NCBI GenBank assembly: GCA_022616555.1
Contig: JAKEEG010000036.1
Location: 1-36,243, forward strand
DNA: 36,243 bases
Direction of reading: 5' to 3'
From: Ignavibacteriota bacterium
GTDB taxonomy: Bacteria; Bacteroidota; Ignavibacteria; UBA10030
The position numbers and the translations under genes are program-made. This document shows positions 1,576-24,427 of this stretch, in pieces. Below the pieces are notes generated by a model that was not told the DNA's origin, searched no databases, and worked only from the letters and a program-made list of their open reading frames with translations. Position 1 is the first letter of the stretch, and each line of letters begins with the position of its first letter.

Positions 1576-2226
1576 TCAGAATGGGTAACATCGTGCCCAA
1601 GCCGTTTGTGGCGGTTCTACGCACGGTGGGTCTGTAATGATCGAGCTGCAAGCTGGTGGCCCAATATATGGATAAACGTAACAGACCGGAATGACCATCA
1701 TTGCCCTTACGGGTGCACGCTCATCGAAAATAAGTACTTCGCCCGACACGAAAAACTCCTCTTTTGTCGCTCTACACCGACCAACGCATTCAGGGTCGCT
1801 GTAGAATGTAAACAACTCTCCCCTCGGATCAACTTCACGGTCATCAGAAGTAAAGTCCCACACAATTCGGAATGTAATTGATGCCTCCGGGTCTAGTATC
1901 AATTGCCTTGTCAATGGATTGTAATATTGTGTACCGGAATGAAGGCTTGAGGAGGAAAAAGAAATCGTCTTTGTAATATGGGGGAACTTAATGGATTGTA
2001 TCTTGATGGACCCTTGAAAGTTCACTGTGTCATCAAGGGTTTCCTCATAAATATTCGTGATGGTGAAATACGTACTGAGATGATTGCCTCCTCCCAAAAC
2101 ATACAGCCCAGACATTTCACCCTGCAGAAAATCTTCAGGCTCGGTATATGGCGGCAATATCTCATCGCACGGGCCAAGGAGAAACACTAATCCCGCGAGG
2201 TGAACAAACCATCGGTTCGTCTTCAT
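1576..2226 (-). CDS. Cys-rich lipoprotein, paralog 3 of 3 (unknown function)
   Basis: 216 residues, ATG start, signal peptide with lipobox VFLLGPC (Cys at about residue 20) followed by DEILPPY, almost the same as paralog 1 (DEVLPPY). Shared blocks are QGEMSGLY, T-N-I-Y-E-E-T-L-D-D-T-V-N-F-x-G-S-I, FPHITKT, LDPEASITF with WDF, and DDREVDPRGELFTF. Conserved cysteines are in C-x3-C and in a C-terminal cluster ending RCYPF. It starts 38 bases after the lysS stop codon and is probably co-transcribed with it. Unlike the other two it stops directly after CYPF, without the short acidic tail. No enzymatic motif is visible. An outer-membrane or periplasmic structural or adhesion role is only a guess. 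Confidence 0.75.
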   Translation of the reverse strand: MKTNRWFVHLAGLVFLLGPCDEILPPYTEPEDFLQGEMSGLYVLGGGNHLSTYFTITNIYEETLDDTVNFQGSIKIQSIKFPHITKTISFSSSSLHSGTQYYNPLTRQLILDPEASITFRIVWDFTSDDREVDPRGELFTFYSDPECVGRCRATKEEFFVSGEVLIFDERAPVRAMMVIPVCYVYPYIGPPACSSIITDPPCVEPPQTAWARCYPF

Positions 2227-2264
2227 ATATAAGTGGAAAGAAGTAGTATCAATTAATGAATAGG

Positions 2265-3806
2265 TTATTTCTCCGGTTTCATTTGTGGAAAAAATATAAC
2301 ATCTCGAATCGACGTCTGTCCAGTCAACAACATTGTTAATCTGTCAATGCCAATACCGAGCCCTGCTGTGGGCGGCATGCCGTACTCTAACGCACGTAAG
2401 AAATCCTCATCTAAGGGCTGCGCCTCTTCATCGCCGCGGGCGCGGAGTTTTACTTGTTCTTCGAACCTAGCTCGCTGGTCAAGCGGGTCGTTTAATTCGG
2501 AAAATGCATTGCACACCTCTTGACCGTTGGCGAACGCCTCGAATCGCTCAACTAGTCCCTGCTCGCTTCTGTGTTTCTTCGCAAGCGGCGACAACTCAAC
2601 CGGGTAGTCGGTAATGAATATCGGCTGAATTAAATGCGGTTGCACTCTCGCACTGAAAATTTCATCAATGAGTCCACCCACCCCCTGCGCCGCTTCTATC
2701 TCAATATGCAACTCTTTGCAGGTCTTTCGCAAGTCCTCTTCCGATTTCCCCCGTAAATCCCGTCCGGTGTATTCCTTAATGGCTCCGAACATCGTTATCC
2801 GTTTCCAGGGAGGCTTAAAATCAATGGTATGCTCACCTATACTAATGGTCGACGAGCCGTTGACTGCCACGGCCGCCTCATGAACCATACCCTCAGTCAA
2901 TTCCATCATCCAGCGGTAATCCCGGTAGGCAACATACAGCTCCAGCATGGTGAATTCCGGATTATGGTTGCGGTCCATGCCTTCGTTGCGGAAGTCTTTG
3001 GAGATTTCGTACACGCCGTCGTATCCACCTACAATGAGGCGTTTGAGATACAGTTCATCGGCGATACGGAGATACAGCTTCACATCCAGCGCGTTGTGGT
3101 GAGTGACAAACGGCCTTGCAGACGCGCCGCCGTACAACGGCTGAAGTACCGGAGTCTCGACTTCAAGGAAATTTTTTGCATCAAGAAATTTCCTGAATCC
3201 GCTGATGAGCTTTGCGCGCTTGATGAATACCTCGCGCACCTCAGGACTCACCACCAAATCGACATAGCGCTGGCGGTAGCGAAGCTCTTTGTCGGAAAAC
3301 GGATCATAAACCACCTTGTTGCCCTGCTCATCCACTTTCTCCTTCACTACTGGCAACGGCCTTAGTGATTTCGCGAGCAATGTCAGCTTTTGTGCGTGGA
3401 TGGAGACCTCTCCCATTTTCGTACGGAATAAAAATCCCGTTATGCCGATAATATCGCCGATGTCAAACAACTTATAAGCGTCGTAGATCGAGCCAAGGTC
3501 ATCTTTCTTGAGATAGACCTGAATCTTCCCCTGCGAGTCCTGAACATGGCAGAATGATGCTTTGCCCATGCGACGGATAGACATAATGCGGCCCGCAAGC
3601 ATAACAGTACGTTGTGGCGCATCGTCTTTGAACGAATCAATGCTCTCTTTCGAAAAATCCGTTCGGTTAAACTCATGCGGATACGGCTCGACGCCAAGCT
3701 TCTTCAGCTCCTCCAGCTCCTCGCGCCGCCTTTGCATGAGCACGTTGAGGTCTTCGTGTTCGACTTGTGGTTCTTGAACTAGCTTTTGTTTTGTTTTTTC
3801 GCTCAT
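2265..3806 (-). CDS. lysS: lysyl-tRNA synthetase, class II
   Basis: Charges tRNA-Lys with lysine in the cytoplasm. The 513-residue protein has the usual order: a variable N-terminal helix, an OB-fold anticodon-binding domain (about 60-170, containing [25 protein letters not shown]-type sequence), then the class II catalytic core. Motif 1 lies around [11 protein letters not shown], motif 2 around [20 protein letters not shown], and motif 3 is [14 protein letters not shown] near the C-terminus followed by RDVIFFPQM. The length is normal for the bacterial enzyme. The start is the ATG at 3806; no clear Shine-Dalgarno precedes it. It lies downstream of the pseudouridine synthase gene across an 88-base gap filled by a palindromic repeat, and upstream of the three lipoprotein genes. 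Confidence 0.97.
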
Positions 3807-20282: not shown

Positions 20283-22709
20283 CTACTCCCCACCCCTCCA
20301 ATCAACAACCCCCCACATCTTACCATCGCTCTCCAACACAATCGCGCCTTCTTTGTCTGTGCGATGGATCTCAACTCCGCGTTGCCGCAACGTCTTCAGC
20401 ACTTCAGGCGACGGGTGGTTGAACTTGTTGTTCTTCCCAACCGATATGACCGCCACCTCCGGCTGAATGGCGCCTATAAACTCTGCGCTTGAGCTTGTGA
20501 TGCTTCCGTGATGCCCCACCTTCAACACCGAACTGCTTAGTGTCCCGCCGTACCGTCCTAGCAATTTTGCTTCGACGCTTTTTTCCGCGTCGCCAACCAG
20601 CAACAGTTCGCACGAGCTGAATATAAGTTTAACAACTAATGACGCATTATTCAAACTCTCAGCGCTATCCTGTTGAAAGAATGGGTGGAGGACATACAGT
20701 CGTATGAATTCATCAATGTTGATGCGGTCTCCCACCTCATACCGAGCAACGGGAATGCCATATTCCACGGCTTTTTGATGGATTTGATTGTACGTATAAC
20801 TCTCTCCCGCCACCGTCGGCTCCACGAGTTGTCGTACATTGAAATGATCGAGAAGGTACGGTACTCCTCCAATGTGATCGCTGTGCGGATGCGATATGAT
20901 AAGTGCGTCCAGTGTGCCGATACCTTTATACTGAAGCAACGGAGCAATTGTCCGCTCTCCCGAATCAAACGTATCCGACCTGCTCCCTGCGTCAAGCAGT
21001 ACATTTTTGCCTGAAGGAAATTCAATGAGAATCGCATCGCCCTGCCATACGTCAATAAAAGTTATCCGGAGCTTCGCTTCCTCCGCGCGCAAAACGGAGG
21101 AATACACAACGGCGTTTCCAATAACAAGAGCAGCAATCAAAAATATTTTTATGAGCGCACGATTCCTAAAGTGTACAGCGCCAATGACCCCCGCATAGTA
21201 CAAAAACGGGAATGAAGCATCCAACCGCGCCGTGCTTACCGAGGCAATCGGCATGCCCGCCGCGAACTTGACAATTTCGAGTAGCCATGAAACGAAAAGG
21301 TCGTTCACCGCTGCGTAATTCTGCGCGAACCATGTCGAGAAAGATGAGAAGACGAGCGTCGTAAAACCGAGCGTTACATTGACTCCCACAACAGGAACCA
21401 CAATCACGTTCGCAAGCAGTGAAACAATTGATACGCGGTCAAAGTAATATGCCGTGAACGGCAGCGTGCCGATCTGCGCCGCCAAGGACACGATAAACAG
21501 TTGCAGCGCCCACTTGACAACCTTCGGTCGTTGCAACCACACTGGGAGCAACTGCGTAGCCCTCATCAGTATCGGATAAAAATATACAATGGAAAGAACA
21601 GCGGCAAATGACAACTGAAACCCCACATTGAACAAATTATTGCTGTTCCACACCAACAAAATAAGCGCCGCAACACTGAGCGATTGATAGATGTCAACCT
21701 TTCGCTCAACGATAAGGCCTATTAAAATGACAATCGCCATGATGGTCGCCCGCACAACCGACGGCGGCGCGCCGACAAGCAGCATATAGAAGAATAGTCC
21801 GGCGATAGTGCAGAATACAATCAATCTCCTCGGTAACCGGATCAACCCAAATACTCCGTAGAAAACGATGGCGATGACTCCGACGTGCAAACCGGATACG
21901 GCAAGCACGTGGATTGTTCCCGTCTCCACAAACGATTGCCTGACTTCGTCTGGCAGCTTACTCCGGTCGGCAAGCAATATCCCTCGCAGGAATGCCGCCG
22001 CTTGTTCGCTGTGCAGGCTATCAACCTGGTTAAGTAAATGTGAACGAAGCCTACCGGGTAAAACACGCCACGAACCTGCTCCTCCTTCAGTAACTCGCAC
22101 TATGCCTGTATCTCTGACCGCCACCACGCCATGCACACCGTTGAGCTCAAGGTAGCGCCCATAATCGAACTCCCCGGGATTTCGTTGCTGAGGATAATCG
22201 TCAATCACGCCTCTGCCATACACGACGGCGCCAAACTTCACATTCTCAAGCATTTCGCCATACACTGCCGGCTTGCCGTACACCAGCACCCTTCTCTCGA
22301 TGGATTGCAGCACCCCCGCTCTCGACAATCGTTCCAGCGAAAGCACGAACTGCACTCTATTTTGCTTGATCGAAGGCTCTTCGACTATTTTTCCTTCAAA
22401 CACAACTTGTTCGCGTTCTTCGACAGGAATAAGTTTCTTGGCAGTAAAATCATCTCTTTGAAATAACTGTAAACACACTCCCAGCGAAACGACAACGAGA
22501 GCAAGAACAGCACCATGGATACCCAACTGAGAGAACCTGTAAGCAAGGATCACTCCGGAGACAAAGAGCGCCGCCGCAACGACAAAAACTGCCGCGGCAT
22601 CGGGCTGAACATACCGCCCAAATAGAATACCCACACAAAGCAACAGCGCGAACCGTAAGGCAGGTCGTCTGGAAAATACCGTCGTTCGTTGTTCCTGAGA
22701 GGCAGTCAT
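20283..22709 (-). CDS. comEC: ComEC/Rec2-family DNA uptake channel protein
   Basis: Inner-membrane channel for transport of single-stranded DNA during natural transformation. The 808-residue protein has the full layout: two or three N-terminal membrane segments, an OB-fold/DUF4131 region (about 100-205, VVFEGKIVEEPS...VVYGRGVIDDYPQQRNPGEFDYGRYLELNGVHG), the multi-pass Competence domain (about 235-520, starting AFLRGILLADRSKLPDEVRQSFVETGTIHVLAVSGLHVGVI), and a C-terminal metallo-beta-lactamase-like nuclease domain (about 550-800, FIDVWQGDAILIEFPSGKNVLLDAG; ISHPHSDHIGG; LKVGHHGSITSSS; HPSPEVLKTL) with its metal-binding histidines intact. ATG start at 22709. No other competence genes are nearby. 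Confidence 0.95.
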   Translation of the reverse strand: MTASQEQRTTVFSRRPALRFALLLCVGILFGRYVQPDAAAVFVVAAALFVSGVILAYRFSQLGIHGAVLALVVVSLGVCLQLFQRDDFTAKKLIPVEEREQVVFEGKIVEEPSIKQNRVQFVLSLERLSRAGVLQSIERRVLVYGKPAVYGEMLENVKFGAVVYGRGVIDDYPQQRNPGEFDYGRYLELNGVHGVVAVRDTGIVRVTEGGAGSWRVLPGRLRSHLLNQVDSLHSEQAAAFLRGILLADRSKLPDEVRQSFVETGTIHVLAVSGLHVGVIAIVFYGVFGLIRLPRRLIVFCTIAGLFFYMLLVGAPPSVVRATIMAIVILIGLIVERKVDIYQSLSVAALILLVWNSNNLFNVGFQLSFAAVLSIVYFYPILMRATQLLPVWLQRPKVVKWALQLFIVSLAAQIGTLPFTAYYFDRVSIVSLLANVIVVPVVGVNVTLGFTTLVFSSFSTWFAQNYAAVNDLFVSWLLEIVKFAAGMPIASVSTARLDASFPFLYYAGVIGAVHFRNRALIKIFLIAALVIGNAVVYSSVLRAEEAKLRITFIDVWQGDAILIEFPSGKNVLLDAGSRSDTFDSGERTIAPLLQYKGIGTLDALIISHPHSDHIGGVPYLLDHFNVRQLVEPTVAGESYTYNQIHQKAVEYGIPVARYEVGDRINIDEFIRLYVLHPFFQQDSAESLNNASLVVKLIFSSCELLLVGDAEKSVEAKLLGRYGGTLSSSVLKVGHHGSITSSSAEFIGAIQPEVAVISVGKNNKFNHPSPEVLKTLRQRGVEIHRTDKEGAIVLESDGKMWGVVDWRGGE

Positions 22710-22774
22710 AATTCAGGCGTACTTATTTTGGCTATACGCATCCGCGTTTTTTCAAAGATATTCTAAAATTCGAG

Positions 22775-22803
22775 TTGACAAACGCTTTTTCTCGATATAT
22801 ATT
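22775..22803 (+). promoter_or_regulatory. strong sigma70-type promoter A (plus strand)
   Basis: TTGACA (22775-22780), exactly 17 bases, then TATATT (22798-22803). The spacer and flanks (AACGC-TTT...CGATATATATTGGT) are strikingly like promoter B at 22936-22964. It points away from comEC into a region with no protein gene, towards the structured RNA element. Confidence 0.7.
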
Positions 22804-22825
22804 GGTATTCATTAAAATTACATTA

Positions 22826-22935
22826 TTGTAAATATTACAAAATTCGTAGGGGCGTTCAATTGAACGCCCACGCATCATTACAAAATTTGTACAATCTTTT
22901 TACAAAAATTGTACAAACAAATTACAAATCTTGTA
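22826..22935. promoter_or_regulatory. operator-like array of TACAA-N3-TTGTA dyads
   Basis: Four dyads of the form TACAA-N3-TTGTA occur at 22836-22848 (one mismatch), 22879-22891, 22901-22913 and 22923-22935. The last three have centres exactly 22 bases apart (22885, 22907, 22929), so a bound protein would sit on one face of the helix. The last abuts the -35 box of promoter B (22936). A further palindrome, TTGTAAATATTACAA, is at 22826-22840. The spacing and dyad symmetry suggest cooperative binding of a dimeric regulator. Plasmid-style iterons of about this length are an alternative reading. No regulator gene lies next to it. Confidence 0.6.
22846..22871. repeat. GTAGGGGCG palindromic repeat (family C)
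   Basis: Contains the perfect 20-bp palindrome GGGCGTTCAATTGAACGCCC (22850-22869) with GTAG and AC at the edges. Same design as 17666-17693 and, in its edges, 22979-23022. It interrupts the dyad array between the first and second operator-like sites. Confidence 0.75.
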
Positions 22936-22964
22936 TTGCGGAACGCGTTTGCCTGATATATATT
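22936..22964 (+). promoter_or_regulatory. sigma70-type promoter B (plus strand), upstream of the structured RNA
   Basis: TTGCGG (22936-22941), exactly 17 bases, then TATATT (22959-22964). The spacer AACGCGTTT...TGATATATATTAGGT is nearly the same as promoter A. The predicted start is near 22971. It directly follows the last TACAA-N3-TTGTA dyad, so it looks repressible or activatable, and the first substantial element downstream is the structured RNA at 23038. Confidence 0.6.
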
Positions 22965-22978
22965 AGGTGAAATTATCG

Positions 22979-23022
22979 GTAGGGGCGACGGCCTGCCTGC
23001 AGGCAGGGCCCGTCGCCCTTAC
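22979..23022. repeat. GTAGGGGCGACGG palindromic repeat (family C)
   Basis: Arms GGGCGACGG (22983-22991) and CCGTCGCCC (23010-23018) enclose the perfect palindrome CCTGCCTGCAGGCAGG (22992-23007). The core is the same CCTGCCTG type as at 16529-16548. It would lie in the leader of any transcript from promoter B. Confidence 0.75.
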
Positions 23023-23037
23023 GCTGATATCATTGTT

Positions 23038-23361
23038 TCCTGAGATTCCGAAGGTGTATGGCCTTGGCAGCCTCCCGACAAGTTCGAGGCGTATCTGCGG
23101 TCGCTCCGCAGAAGGCTCCAAGGTGAATCGCTGAACACACAATAGCTGTTCAAAGCCAAGAAAAAATGTCAGCCTCGCGCCTCGTCACCCGTGCTGCGGG
23201 TACCAAACGGGCTGATGCGTCAATTTGGTGAAGGCGAGGATGTATATCCTCACCTACATCAACGACGGCTCCACCGGACGAAACAGCCGTACCGGTCGAG
23301 CGCTATAGGGCACGTCCCGCATCGGCAACGCGGGAACACCTTCGGTTCTTAGGAGCTTTTT
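23038..23361 (+). ncRNA. candidate novel multi-branched structured RNA
   Basis: A ~315-nt G+C-rich segment in an otherwise A+T-rich gap, with many perfect stems. Closing helix: TCCTGAG (23038-23044) with CTTAGGA (23348-23354, one G-U), then CCGAAGGTGT (23048-23057) with ACACCTTCGG (23336-23345). Inside, in order: CCTTGG-C-AGCCT (23062-23073) with AGGCTCCAAGG (23113-23123), capped by CTGCGG/CCGCAG (23095-23111); TGAACA/TGTTCA (23132-23152); TCAGCC (23169-23174) with GGCTGA (23210-23215), enclosing ACCCG/CGGGT (23187-23201); GAGGAT/ATCCTC (23236-23251); ACGGCT/AGCCGT (23265-23290); TCCCGC/GCGGGA (23315-23335). TTTTT follows at 23357-23361. No credible ORF covers it, and I see no RNase P, tmRNA, SRP or 6S signature. 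Plus orientation is inferred from promoters A and B and the T-run. Confidence 0.7.
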
Positions 23362-23521
23362 AGAATAACGGAGAATCAAAAAAAGAAAACAGAATACACA
23401 AGAAACATATCGCCCTATCAACCGTCAATACGCTCTGAAGTCAAAAAATTCAGAACGATGAAACAGGATTAGTGTTTCCTTTTCAACTGGGAACAGGAAA
23501 CTGGCAACTCGAAACTGTGCT

Positions 23522-24427
23522 TCATCCCAGGATCTCAAGTATTGCCGGCGTTACATGCGTCAAGTTCTTTACGCGCTTCACAAATTCTTTGCGCGCCTTC
23601 CCAATGGCAATACACGGTACGGGGTTGCGCGTGTGTGACTTTGTCGAAAGGTCTTCGATATTTCCGTGGTCACTGATCATCGCAATGAGTGTCGTGTCCA
23701 AATCAACCGTTTCAATCAAGCCTCCGAGGAACTCATCGAACCTTTCCAGCACATTGACAGCTTTCGACATCTCCCTGCTATGCCCCGCATGGTCGGTCAA
23801 CCAATACTCAAACAGTGTAAAATCGTGCCGGCTCGCAATTTCCGCTAGATGTTTGCCGGCTTCGCGCGAAGTAATCGGTTCAATATCCGGGTGGCCTAAT
23901 TCAGCCCAGCGCTCGCGGACAAAATCCGCAGAGACGGCTTTGTTTGCTTTCAAGATGTCGGCAGTCAACAACGGAGTATTTGACATCATGCACGAAAGCG
24001 TGGTCACGGTCAGTCGTCGTGTGCCGGATTCGGTGTACTCAAAAAATTTCTTCGGGAACGCATTAGCAAAGCACACTGATTTCTCCTGTGCTTTCAATTG
24101 CCTGAAGATGTTTTTTTCGTATATCGTCTGCCTCAGTGCTGTGGGCGGGTAGGGACCAAAATGCTTCTTGATGAGTTTCGGTGCATTGACGCCCGTGAAA
24201 ATCGCCGTTTGTCCCGTTCCGCTTTGCGGCAATCCCTCCACGCCCAGCGTGGCATTGGCTGGTGAGAGTTCTGCAAGTTGAGTGGAAATCCGTTTTCGCC
24301 GAAGACTGAATAGCTCCACGCCCAACAACGATTGCAATTCTGGGAGTTTAGCTTGGAAGATGGGGTTGATAGCAGGGTCGGGTTTACCGATACCGACGCC
24401 GTCAAGGAAAAGGAGGATGATCTTCAC
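23522..24427 (-). CDS. alkaline phosphatase-superfamily metalloenzyme (phosphomutase-like)
   Basis: 301-residue protein of the alkaline phosphatase/independent phosphoglycerate mutase superfamily. Metal-binding features are visible in family order: LFLDGVGIG with Asp9, the nucleophile-type loop SGTGQTAIFTG (Thr74 the probable phosphate-accepting residue), DHAGH (212-216), SDHGNIED (252-259) and SHTRNPVP with His265. This set would bind two divalent metals. It lacks the insert domain of full phosphoglycerate mutases and its substrate is unknown. The start is a GTG that overlaps the dtd stop codon (GTGA), so it is translationally coupled to dtd. It has no signal peptide and should be cytoplasmic. 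Confidence 0.85.
   Translation of the reverse strand: MKIILLFLDGVGIGKPDPAINPIFQAKLPELQSLLGVELFSLRRKRISTQLAELSPANATLGVEGLPQSGTGQTAIFTGVNAPKLIKKHFGPYPPTALRQTIYEKNIFRQLKAQEKSVCFANAFPKKFFEYTESGTRRLTVTTLSCMMSNTPLLTADILKANKAVSADFVRERWAELGHPDIEPITSREAGKHLAEIASRHDFTLFEYWLTDHAGHSREMSKAVNVLERFDEFLGGLIETVDLDTTLIAMISDHGNIEDLSTKSHTRNPVPCIAIGKARKEFVKRVKNLTHVTPAILEILG

Follow-up and report, generated by a model that had tools for sequence, protein, structure and literature searches.

A multicopy family of probable structured noncoding RNAs with unlike cores in one Ignavibacteriota genome

What is the G+C-rich segment that lies between two genes of an Ignavibacteriota bacterium, and does it represent a known class of RNA? 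It is found in the window, by which we mean the whole stretch of 36,243 nucleotides that was analysed, in a gap of 812 bp that separates a comEC-like gene (20283-22709, minus strand) from a gene of the metalloenzyme superfamily (23522-24427, minus strand). An earlier note, made from the sequence alone, had described it as a multibranched structured RNA of about 315 nt, and folding bears this out: the plus strand of 23038-23361 has a minimum free energy (MFE) of -145.3 kcal/mol versus -106.2 +/- 5.2 for 100 dinucleotide shuffles (z -7.55), none of which was as good. The minus strand also folds well (z -5.45, no shuffle as good). The perfect closing helix of 10 bp, CCGAAGGTGT at 23048-23057 with ACACCTTCGG at 23336-23345, is present in both the sequence and the fold, and its outward extension by 7 bp (TCCTGAG/CTTAGGA, one G-U pair) was likewise read correctly, as was the contrast in composition, with a G+C content of 0.53-0.62 in 100-nt windows over the core versus 0.23-0.40 in windows of the 250 nt upstream. 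The lack of a coding pattern also holds, since the ORFs that overlap the core (12 of at least 20 aa with alternative starts allowed, the longest of 59 aa) are short and on inspection none appears convincingly coding. Finally, no Rfam 15 family reached its gathering threshold anywhere in the window, in agreement with the absence of a recognised family in the note. A lax Rfam search of 22730-23540 (E<=5) gave four matches, none of them near its gathering score, and one of 20 loci of the family described below (E<=1) gave five below-gathering matches; the best, whalefall-1 (E 0.018), is in L108 but not within the core. A tRNA/tmRNA scan of the window found none. The parts of this copy and of its surroundings are as follows.

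22775..22803, plus strand: promoter-like TTGACA-17-TATATT, 11/12, not above chance on its own
22834..22935, plus strand: four operator-like repeats resembling TTACAAAATTTGTA, their starts 43, 22 and 22 nt apart, located between promoter and core
22936..22964, plus strand: weak second promoter-like site TTGCGG-17-TATATT, 8/12, read by eye
23038..23354, plus strand: structured RNA core closed by terminal helix P1 (z -7.55; 28 loci in the genome)
23038..23057, plus strand: P1 5' strand TCCTGAGATTCCGAAGGTGT; P1 is in the separately computed MFE folds of 9/9 superfamily I copies
23060..23125, plus strand: P2 domain, a three-way junction with outer helix CCTTGG 23062-23067/CCAAGG 23118-23123
23130..23134, plus strand: P3 5' strand GCTGA, whose conserved pairing is with TCAGC 23169-23173, a pairing absent from the MFE fold of the window copy
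23145..23150, plus strand: GCTGTT, possible loop-loop partner of AACAGC 23282-23287, in 9/9 superfamily I copies
23169..23173, plus strand: P3 3' strand TCAGC, which the MFE fold of the window copy pairs with a downstream GGCTGA
23176..23181, plus strand: P4 5' strand CGCGCC, partner GGCACG, with one C-A mismatch in the window copy
23233..23254, plus strand: hairpin GGCGAGGATGTATATCCTCACC, a separate short repeat also present elsewhere in the genome; in L001-L003, not in L004-L007
23274..23295, plus strand: P5 hairpin CCGGACG-AAACAGC-CGTACCGG, covariation weak
23309..23314, plus strand: P4 3' strand GGCACG, from the duplex comparison between copies
23316..23334, plus strand: P6 hairpin CCCGC...GCGGG, covariation weak
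23336..23354, plus strand: P1 3' strand ACACCTTCGGTTCTTAGGA, from sequence, duplex energies and MFE folds
23405..23412, plus strand: trailer motif ACATATCG after an A/G-rich stretch, in 19/25 copies

The earlier note had missed that this segment belongs to a multicopy family. At least 28 loci in the source genome (2.99 Mb, about 98% complete) were collected by BLAST, covariance models, a pattern of the ends and shared flanks. BLAST within the genome returned four more near-full-length copies at 83-88% identity and two further matches of about 80 nt at 82-84% identity, both of which are parts of full-length subfamily B members that are 94% identical to each other; 14 of its 23 rows fall within query positions 191-229, the region of the short-repeat hairpin, some of them reporting a single place once on each strand. 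R1, a covariance model built on the 5' P2 domain, added an eighth copy, L028 (37.6 bits); it has ends of this kind too and aligns over 140-153 nt at about 65-68%. Common promoter and downstream modules led to L036 and L040, which have similar ends and very different cores, and the end pattern revealed a second core type, subfamily C, to which L036 belongs. With a second covariance model, R2, built from five C cores, 19 places in the genome received scores: 12 C copies, six copies of subfamily E, and L111, a match of 33.8 bits at a contig end that was judged coding by eye and discarded. Superfamily I, which has the core type of the window, comprises nine loci (five of subfamily A, two of B, L028 and L040), and superfamily II, with the other core, comprises 18 (12 of C, two of them identical, and six of E). 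A minimal-core member on contig C59, found by eye, has similar ends, trailer and promoter module, and the list of subfamilies may be incomplete. L095, which goes with L094, is counted as a locus and not as a distinct sequence (the 3-kb counterparts L078/L079 are identical), and the minimal member was left out of the statistics on 26 copies. L094 (C31:24933) and L095 (C31:100208) lie on one contig in opposite orientation, reflecting a large inverted duplication or an assembly fault.

The cores are roughly 120-390 nt long, are closed by the long terminal helix P1 and have similar ends: TCCTAA is present at the 5' end of 20/26 copies and TTAGG at the 3' end of 24/26, while AAGGYG, found in 13/26, is absent from subfamily E and part of C. 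In superfamily II this likeness arises partly by construction, because both R2 and the end pattern used the ends; the copies found by BLAST are exempt from this. The paralogs are otherwise well diverged, with a mean column identity of 54% in the alignment of C and E.

Such divergence allows the fold to be examined by covariation, which the earlier note had proposed as a check, and compensatory changes are indeed present between copies. Double-sided changes occur in 12 of 63 consensus pairs among the five C cores and, in an alignment of 17 C and E cores made by MAFFT without structure, in 10 of 37 pairs (5.7 in shuffles, 5/500 as high). In the latter alignment, standard pairs fill 94.9% of 626 cells versus 89.1% when shuffled and 37-53% when slid, the outer helix is paired in 95.1% of cells of the 17 copies, and 42 cells carry double changes versus 11.8 +/- 3.8 in shuffles (0/500 as high); further pair types are just weakly above shuffles (32 versus 28.6, 23/500 as high). 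The covariation of C and E is strong, although not a formal probability, as the shuffle control leaves relatedness in, and relatedness inflates the signal because all of it comes from paralogs of one genome.

In superfamily I, six hand-picked helices were compared by duplex energy with their own partner and with that of another subfamily. The own pairing is the better one for P1 (-25.6 versus -19.1), P2 (-7.5 versus -1.2), P3 (-6.3 versus -3.0) and P4 (-11.6 versus -4.6), and P5 and P6 barely covary (-7.9 versus -7.5 and -9.3 versus -7.9). Hand-picking favours own pairs, but it could not easily yield differing complementary spellings of one helix among subfamilies, such as CCTTGG/CCAAGG, ACTTCCGG/CCGGAGT and CGTCGATG/CATCGACG for the outer helix of P2, GCTGA/TCAGC, GCCGA/TCGGC and GCCGAGC/GCTCGGC for P3, and CGTGCCT/AGGCACG, CGTGGCT/AGCCACG, CTTGGCTGC/GCAGCCAAG and CTTGCCTG/CAGGCAAG for P4. 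Moreover, P1 and P2 are present in the separately computed MFE folds of all nine copies and P4 in eight, the window copy being the exception. Strands of 3 nt (P4 of L001, P3 of L006/L007, P5 of most copies) and the 4-nt P2 strands of L006/L007, where chance matches are possible, were set aside in this check.

The middle of the window copy is off-type, as its MFE fold replaces the conserved P3 by TCAGCC/GGCTGA. The earlier note had listed this stem, which does exist in the MFE fold of the window copy, but in the other copies the partner of TCAGC, or of its counterpart, is a GCTGA-like strand lying upstream, and the note had overlooked that the middle of its fold is not conserved. When forced into the conserved P4, the window copy folds 2.5 kcal/mol worse than its MFE.

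The plus strand is the RNA strand, since the alignment of C and E has 70 G-U cells versus 8 A-C cells, and on the minus strand those 70 would be mismatches. The mean fold z over 26 copies is -4.78 on the plus and -3.84 on the minus strand (30 shuffles each), and the plus strand folds relatively better in 21/26 copies.

Are these structures parts of transcription units? A near-consensus sigma-70 promoter lies 63-289 nt upstream of the core on the plus strand in 23/26 copies, versus 5/26 on the minus strand and 99/1040 shuffles, the scan covering 320 nt of upstream sequence and asking for a -35/-10 pair of at least 10/12 with a spacing of 16-18 nt. Two of the misses, L094 and L097, have TTGACT-17-TACATT (9/12), and the third, L006, has a TTGACA/TATATT pair seen by eye at the very edge of the scanned stretch. 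This enrichment belongs to the family; the window region by itself has one promoter-like match versus a shuffle mean of 1.4, which is not above chance. Of the two upstream promoters claimed for the window copy, that at 22775-22803 is near consensus and that at 22936-22964 reaches just 8/12; paralogs L002 and L004 have TTGACG-18-TATATT. The operator-like repeats of the window are part of a promoter module common to L002, L004, L036 and other loci, and the module is also found at C90 (L044), where it is followed by ORFs that by eye we take to be phage-terminase-like.

Downstream, ACATATCG with at most one mismatch occurs within 160 nt in 19/25 copies versus 25/1000 shuffles, preceded by sequence whose A+G fraction is 0.44-0.80; L107, where the contig ends, was left out of the trailer counts and of the loop-trailer pairing given below. 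The T-run at 23356-23361 is real in the window copy but is not conserved, as at least 5 T in the 10 nt after P1 are found in only 5/26 copies, all of superfamily I, and a scan for terminator-like sites in the window region gave none (shuffle mean 1.3). The transcribed unit is probably longer than the 315 nt first described. The ORFs adjoining the copies run in both directions, so the family is not simply a leader of the next gene; by eye, some of them presumably correspond to groEL, dnaG and thyA. After the C-type copy L096 (C49), an ORF (2009-3187, reverse-complemented locus) has what we take to be a resemblance to a three-Cys-motif partner protein, and a second ORF overlaps it.

Some leaders contain palindromes. 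Those of the window, at 22979-23022 and 22848-22871, are of the types GTAGGGGCGA...TCGCCCTTAC and TAGGGGCGTTCAATTGAACGCCC, and L004 and L036 have leaders with GGGGCG palindromes like them, as seen by eye. When GC-rich palindromes of 8 nt or more are counted, 13/26 leaders have one versus 1315/5200 shuffles, an enrichment of about twofold; some lie within small inserted palindromes. Hairpins whose loops are self-complementary, for example GTGGCCAC and AGAGCTCT, were noticed in the leaders of L096, L100, L103, L106, L107 and L109, and such loops are possible kissing-loop dimer sites.

Homologs of the segment were thus found as paralogs, and only inside the source genome. BLAST in 60 relatives, R1 in 31 other genomes of the taxonomic family (best candidates scored, up to 141 per genome) and R2 in 97 other genomes of the order (best candidates scored, up to 26 per genome) gave no homolog. 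Model R3 gave none among the best eight candidates per genome in 293 other genomes of the class, a weak search given that scoring, as the source genome itself yielded eight of its 18 loci. The end pattern, drawn from the source genome, has 23 matches there and 17 in 12 of the 31 other genomes of the family, with at most two each and never two on one contig, so that no inverted pair was seen. The 32 family genomes searched include the source genome as the one representative of its genus, and homologs in other genera may lie beyond the reach of these searches, given the divergence of the paralogs. Exact patterns had no match in viral contigs, and three queries (the window core, a C core and an E core) gave nothing when compared with phages and plasmids by distant blastn. 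An exact-pattern scan of genome contigs gave a single match, in a Rhizobium stretch, which was judged to be chance. No description recognised as this RNA family was found in the open-licence literature searched. The family is real and, as far as Rfam 15 and that literature show, undescribed.

What could such RNAs do? Some internal stretches are constant or nearly so. In subfamily C, UAUUUGUCGUCAAC (14 nt) is invariant in the loop of 11/11 distinct copies and is followed in all of them by 8 nt that are entirely pyrimidine, although their letters vary. UGUCGU in the C loop has a complement, ACGACA, that is also present in the C cores, and the E cores are without UGUCGU. In superfamily I, GCUGUU is present in 9/9 copies and AACAGC in 7/9 (absent in L006 and L007), which gives partial support to the earlier hint of switching or pseudoknots in the form of the complementarity between GCTGTT 23145-23150 and AACAGC 23282-23287; no seed comparable to UAUUUGUCGUCAAC was seen in this superfamily. 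The invariant stretches suggest contact with another RNA, with a protein or within the molecule, and the C loop with its pyrimidines could suit an RNA that regulates translation starts by base pairing. Pairing between loop and trailer in superfamily II is unsupported (own -10.87, swapped -10.96, shuffled -10.50 in 16 copies).

Taken as sequence evidence, these features very probably reflect a family of expressed structured noncoding RNAs, and we think it likely, with somewhat more reserve, that they form a lineage-restricted, dispersed multigene family that is driven by promoters and acts in trans. A job as trans-acting base-pairing regulators is a tentative proposal. A typical unit would comprise a sigma-70-type promoter, a leader of about 60-290 nt, the P1-closed core, a purine-rich trailer and ACATATCG. 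Once transcribed, the long P1 helix would bring the ends of the core together and, judging from the length of P1 alone, might be a substrate for RNase III or another nuclease of double strands, whose cut would release the core; the released core would then act in trans, with its invariant loops exposed to a partner RNA or protein. Action in trans is favoured because the invariant stretches suggest contacts; the FopS family, considered below, is the nearest functional parallel.

A different origin would be a selfish, MITE-like repeat in which P1 represents terminal inverted repeats for a transposase, folding is a by-product and promoters were carried along. The many copies in one genome with none found in relatives would fit this, as would the inverted repeats themselves, whose strands pair in 9/9 superfamily I copies, and the similar end letters (TCCTAA, TTAGG) around cores that are unlike inside. 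Six short elements, which we call D (L063, L069, L076, L077, L082 and L088), could point the same way: they are end-pattern matches consisting of palindromes of about 70 nt or apparent halves, begin similarly by eye with CCTAAY..AAGGCGTC.CGCCGAG or the like, and two of the six, L063 and L076, can be aligned to the 3' end of C-type cores, with several mismatches in about 26 nt. However, internal helices covary, G-U exceeds A-C, subfamily C has an invariant internal loop, and no target-site duplication was recognised by eye. In addition, promoter and trailer lie outside P1 and accompany most copies, and common sequence extends beyond both sides in many copies, so that P1 probably does not bound the duplicated unit. 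On balance we regard the selfish repeat as unlikely.

It is also doubtful that the RNAs serve as a ribonucleoprotein or RNA-only scaffold in the manner of OLE, ROOL and GOLLD, with self-complementary loops of cores or leader hairpins joining copies. Their size, the multibranched closed fold, the possible GCUGUU/AACAGC loop-loop contact and the GC-rich leader palindromes are compatible with a scaffold, but Rfam gives no match, the palindrome enrichment is modest and there is no known partner protein. A retron, a retrotransposed element or a Ro-bound Y RNA could share the terminal helix formed from the RNA ends and the many copies; yet neither PF00078 (reverse transcriptase) nor PF05731 (TROVE) has a match in the genome at E<=0.001 (in controls, PF00078 matches 3/14 genomes and PF05731 1/14), and in a genome about 98% complete this argues against retrons, copying by a resident reverse transcriptase and Y RNAs, which we consider extremely improbable. 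Hardly more credit is due to the idea of a remnant of coding sequence or of a leader that acts in cis on the downstream gene: short ORFs overlap the core and many copies stand upstream of an ORF in the same direction, but none of these short ORFs looks coding and the downstream gene is on the opposite strand in the window and in several other copies.

The trans-acting RNA family that we favour has partial counterparts in the literature. The FopS family, as described in PMC11697453, consists of 14 paralogous sRNAs in Bacteroides thetaiotaomicron, is conserved in Bacteroidaceae and has a consensus of a single-stranded 5' stretch and a terminator hairpin. It resembles the present family in that one genome contains several noncoding paralogs, which have promoters of their own (here promoter-like sites, in 23/26 copies) and a conserved unpaired stretch. 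In contrast to FopS so described, the cores here are large, multibranched, closed by P1 and found in one genome only, and in place of an unpaired 5' seed with a terminator we find multibranched cores and, in the window region, no terminator-like site. OLE, ROOL and GOLLD, presented in PMC12286853 as large branched structured bacterial noncoding RNAs of mostly unknown role, are comparable in being large, branched and structured, whereas our family has no Rfam match, many copies in one genome and no match in phages or, by exact pattern, in viral contigs. Pneumococcus (PMC3049150) and Coxiella (PMC5896051) have repeats and MITEs that are likewise small and dispersed, with complementary ends in the MITEs; unlike these repeats, going by their descriptions, the cores are mostly accompanied by a promoter and trailer outside the ends, and their helices covary. 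This is a structured bacterial noncoding RNA that is unusual in its copy number and in its unlike cores within a common frame.

If expressed, the family would mean that a 3-Mb genome gives about 28 loci, mostly with promoter-like sites, to an undescribed structured RNA, which is twice the number of FopS paralogs reported for B. thetaiotaomicron (PMC11697453). Since the paralogs keep their pairs despite their divergence, the fold is testable at once, and intragenomic covariation can find a lineage-restricted RNA family in one genome where searches between species see nothing. The presence of two core types in a common frame raises the question of how an RNA family exchanges its core. We speculate, with little confidence, that this is a modular RNA gene system, in which a standard frame made of promoter, leader hairpin, P1 ends, purine-rich trailer and ACATATCG would carry exchangeable structured cores (at least two unlike folds and a minimal core) at about 28 loci in a single lineage; if true, it would be an RNA counterpart of cassette-based diversification.

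Small hairpin repeats were also observed within some copies. In L102 (minus strand of the locus), a hairpin repeat CCTGCCTGCCG...GTAGGCA seems to interrupt the 5' strand of P1, and palindromes like this one are found in hairpins of L002 and L003.
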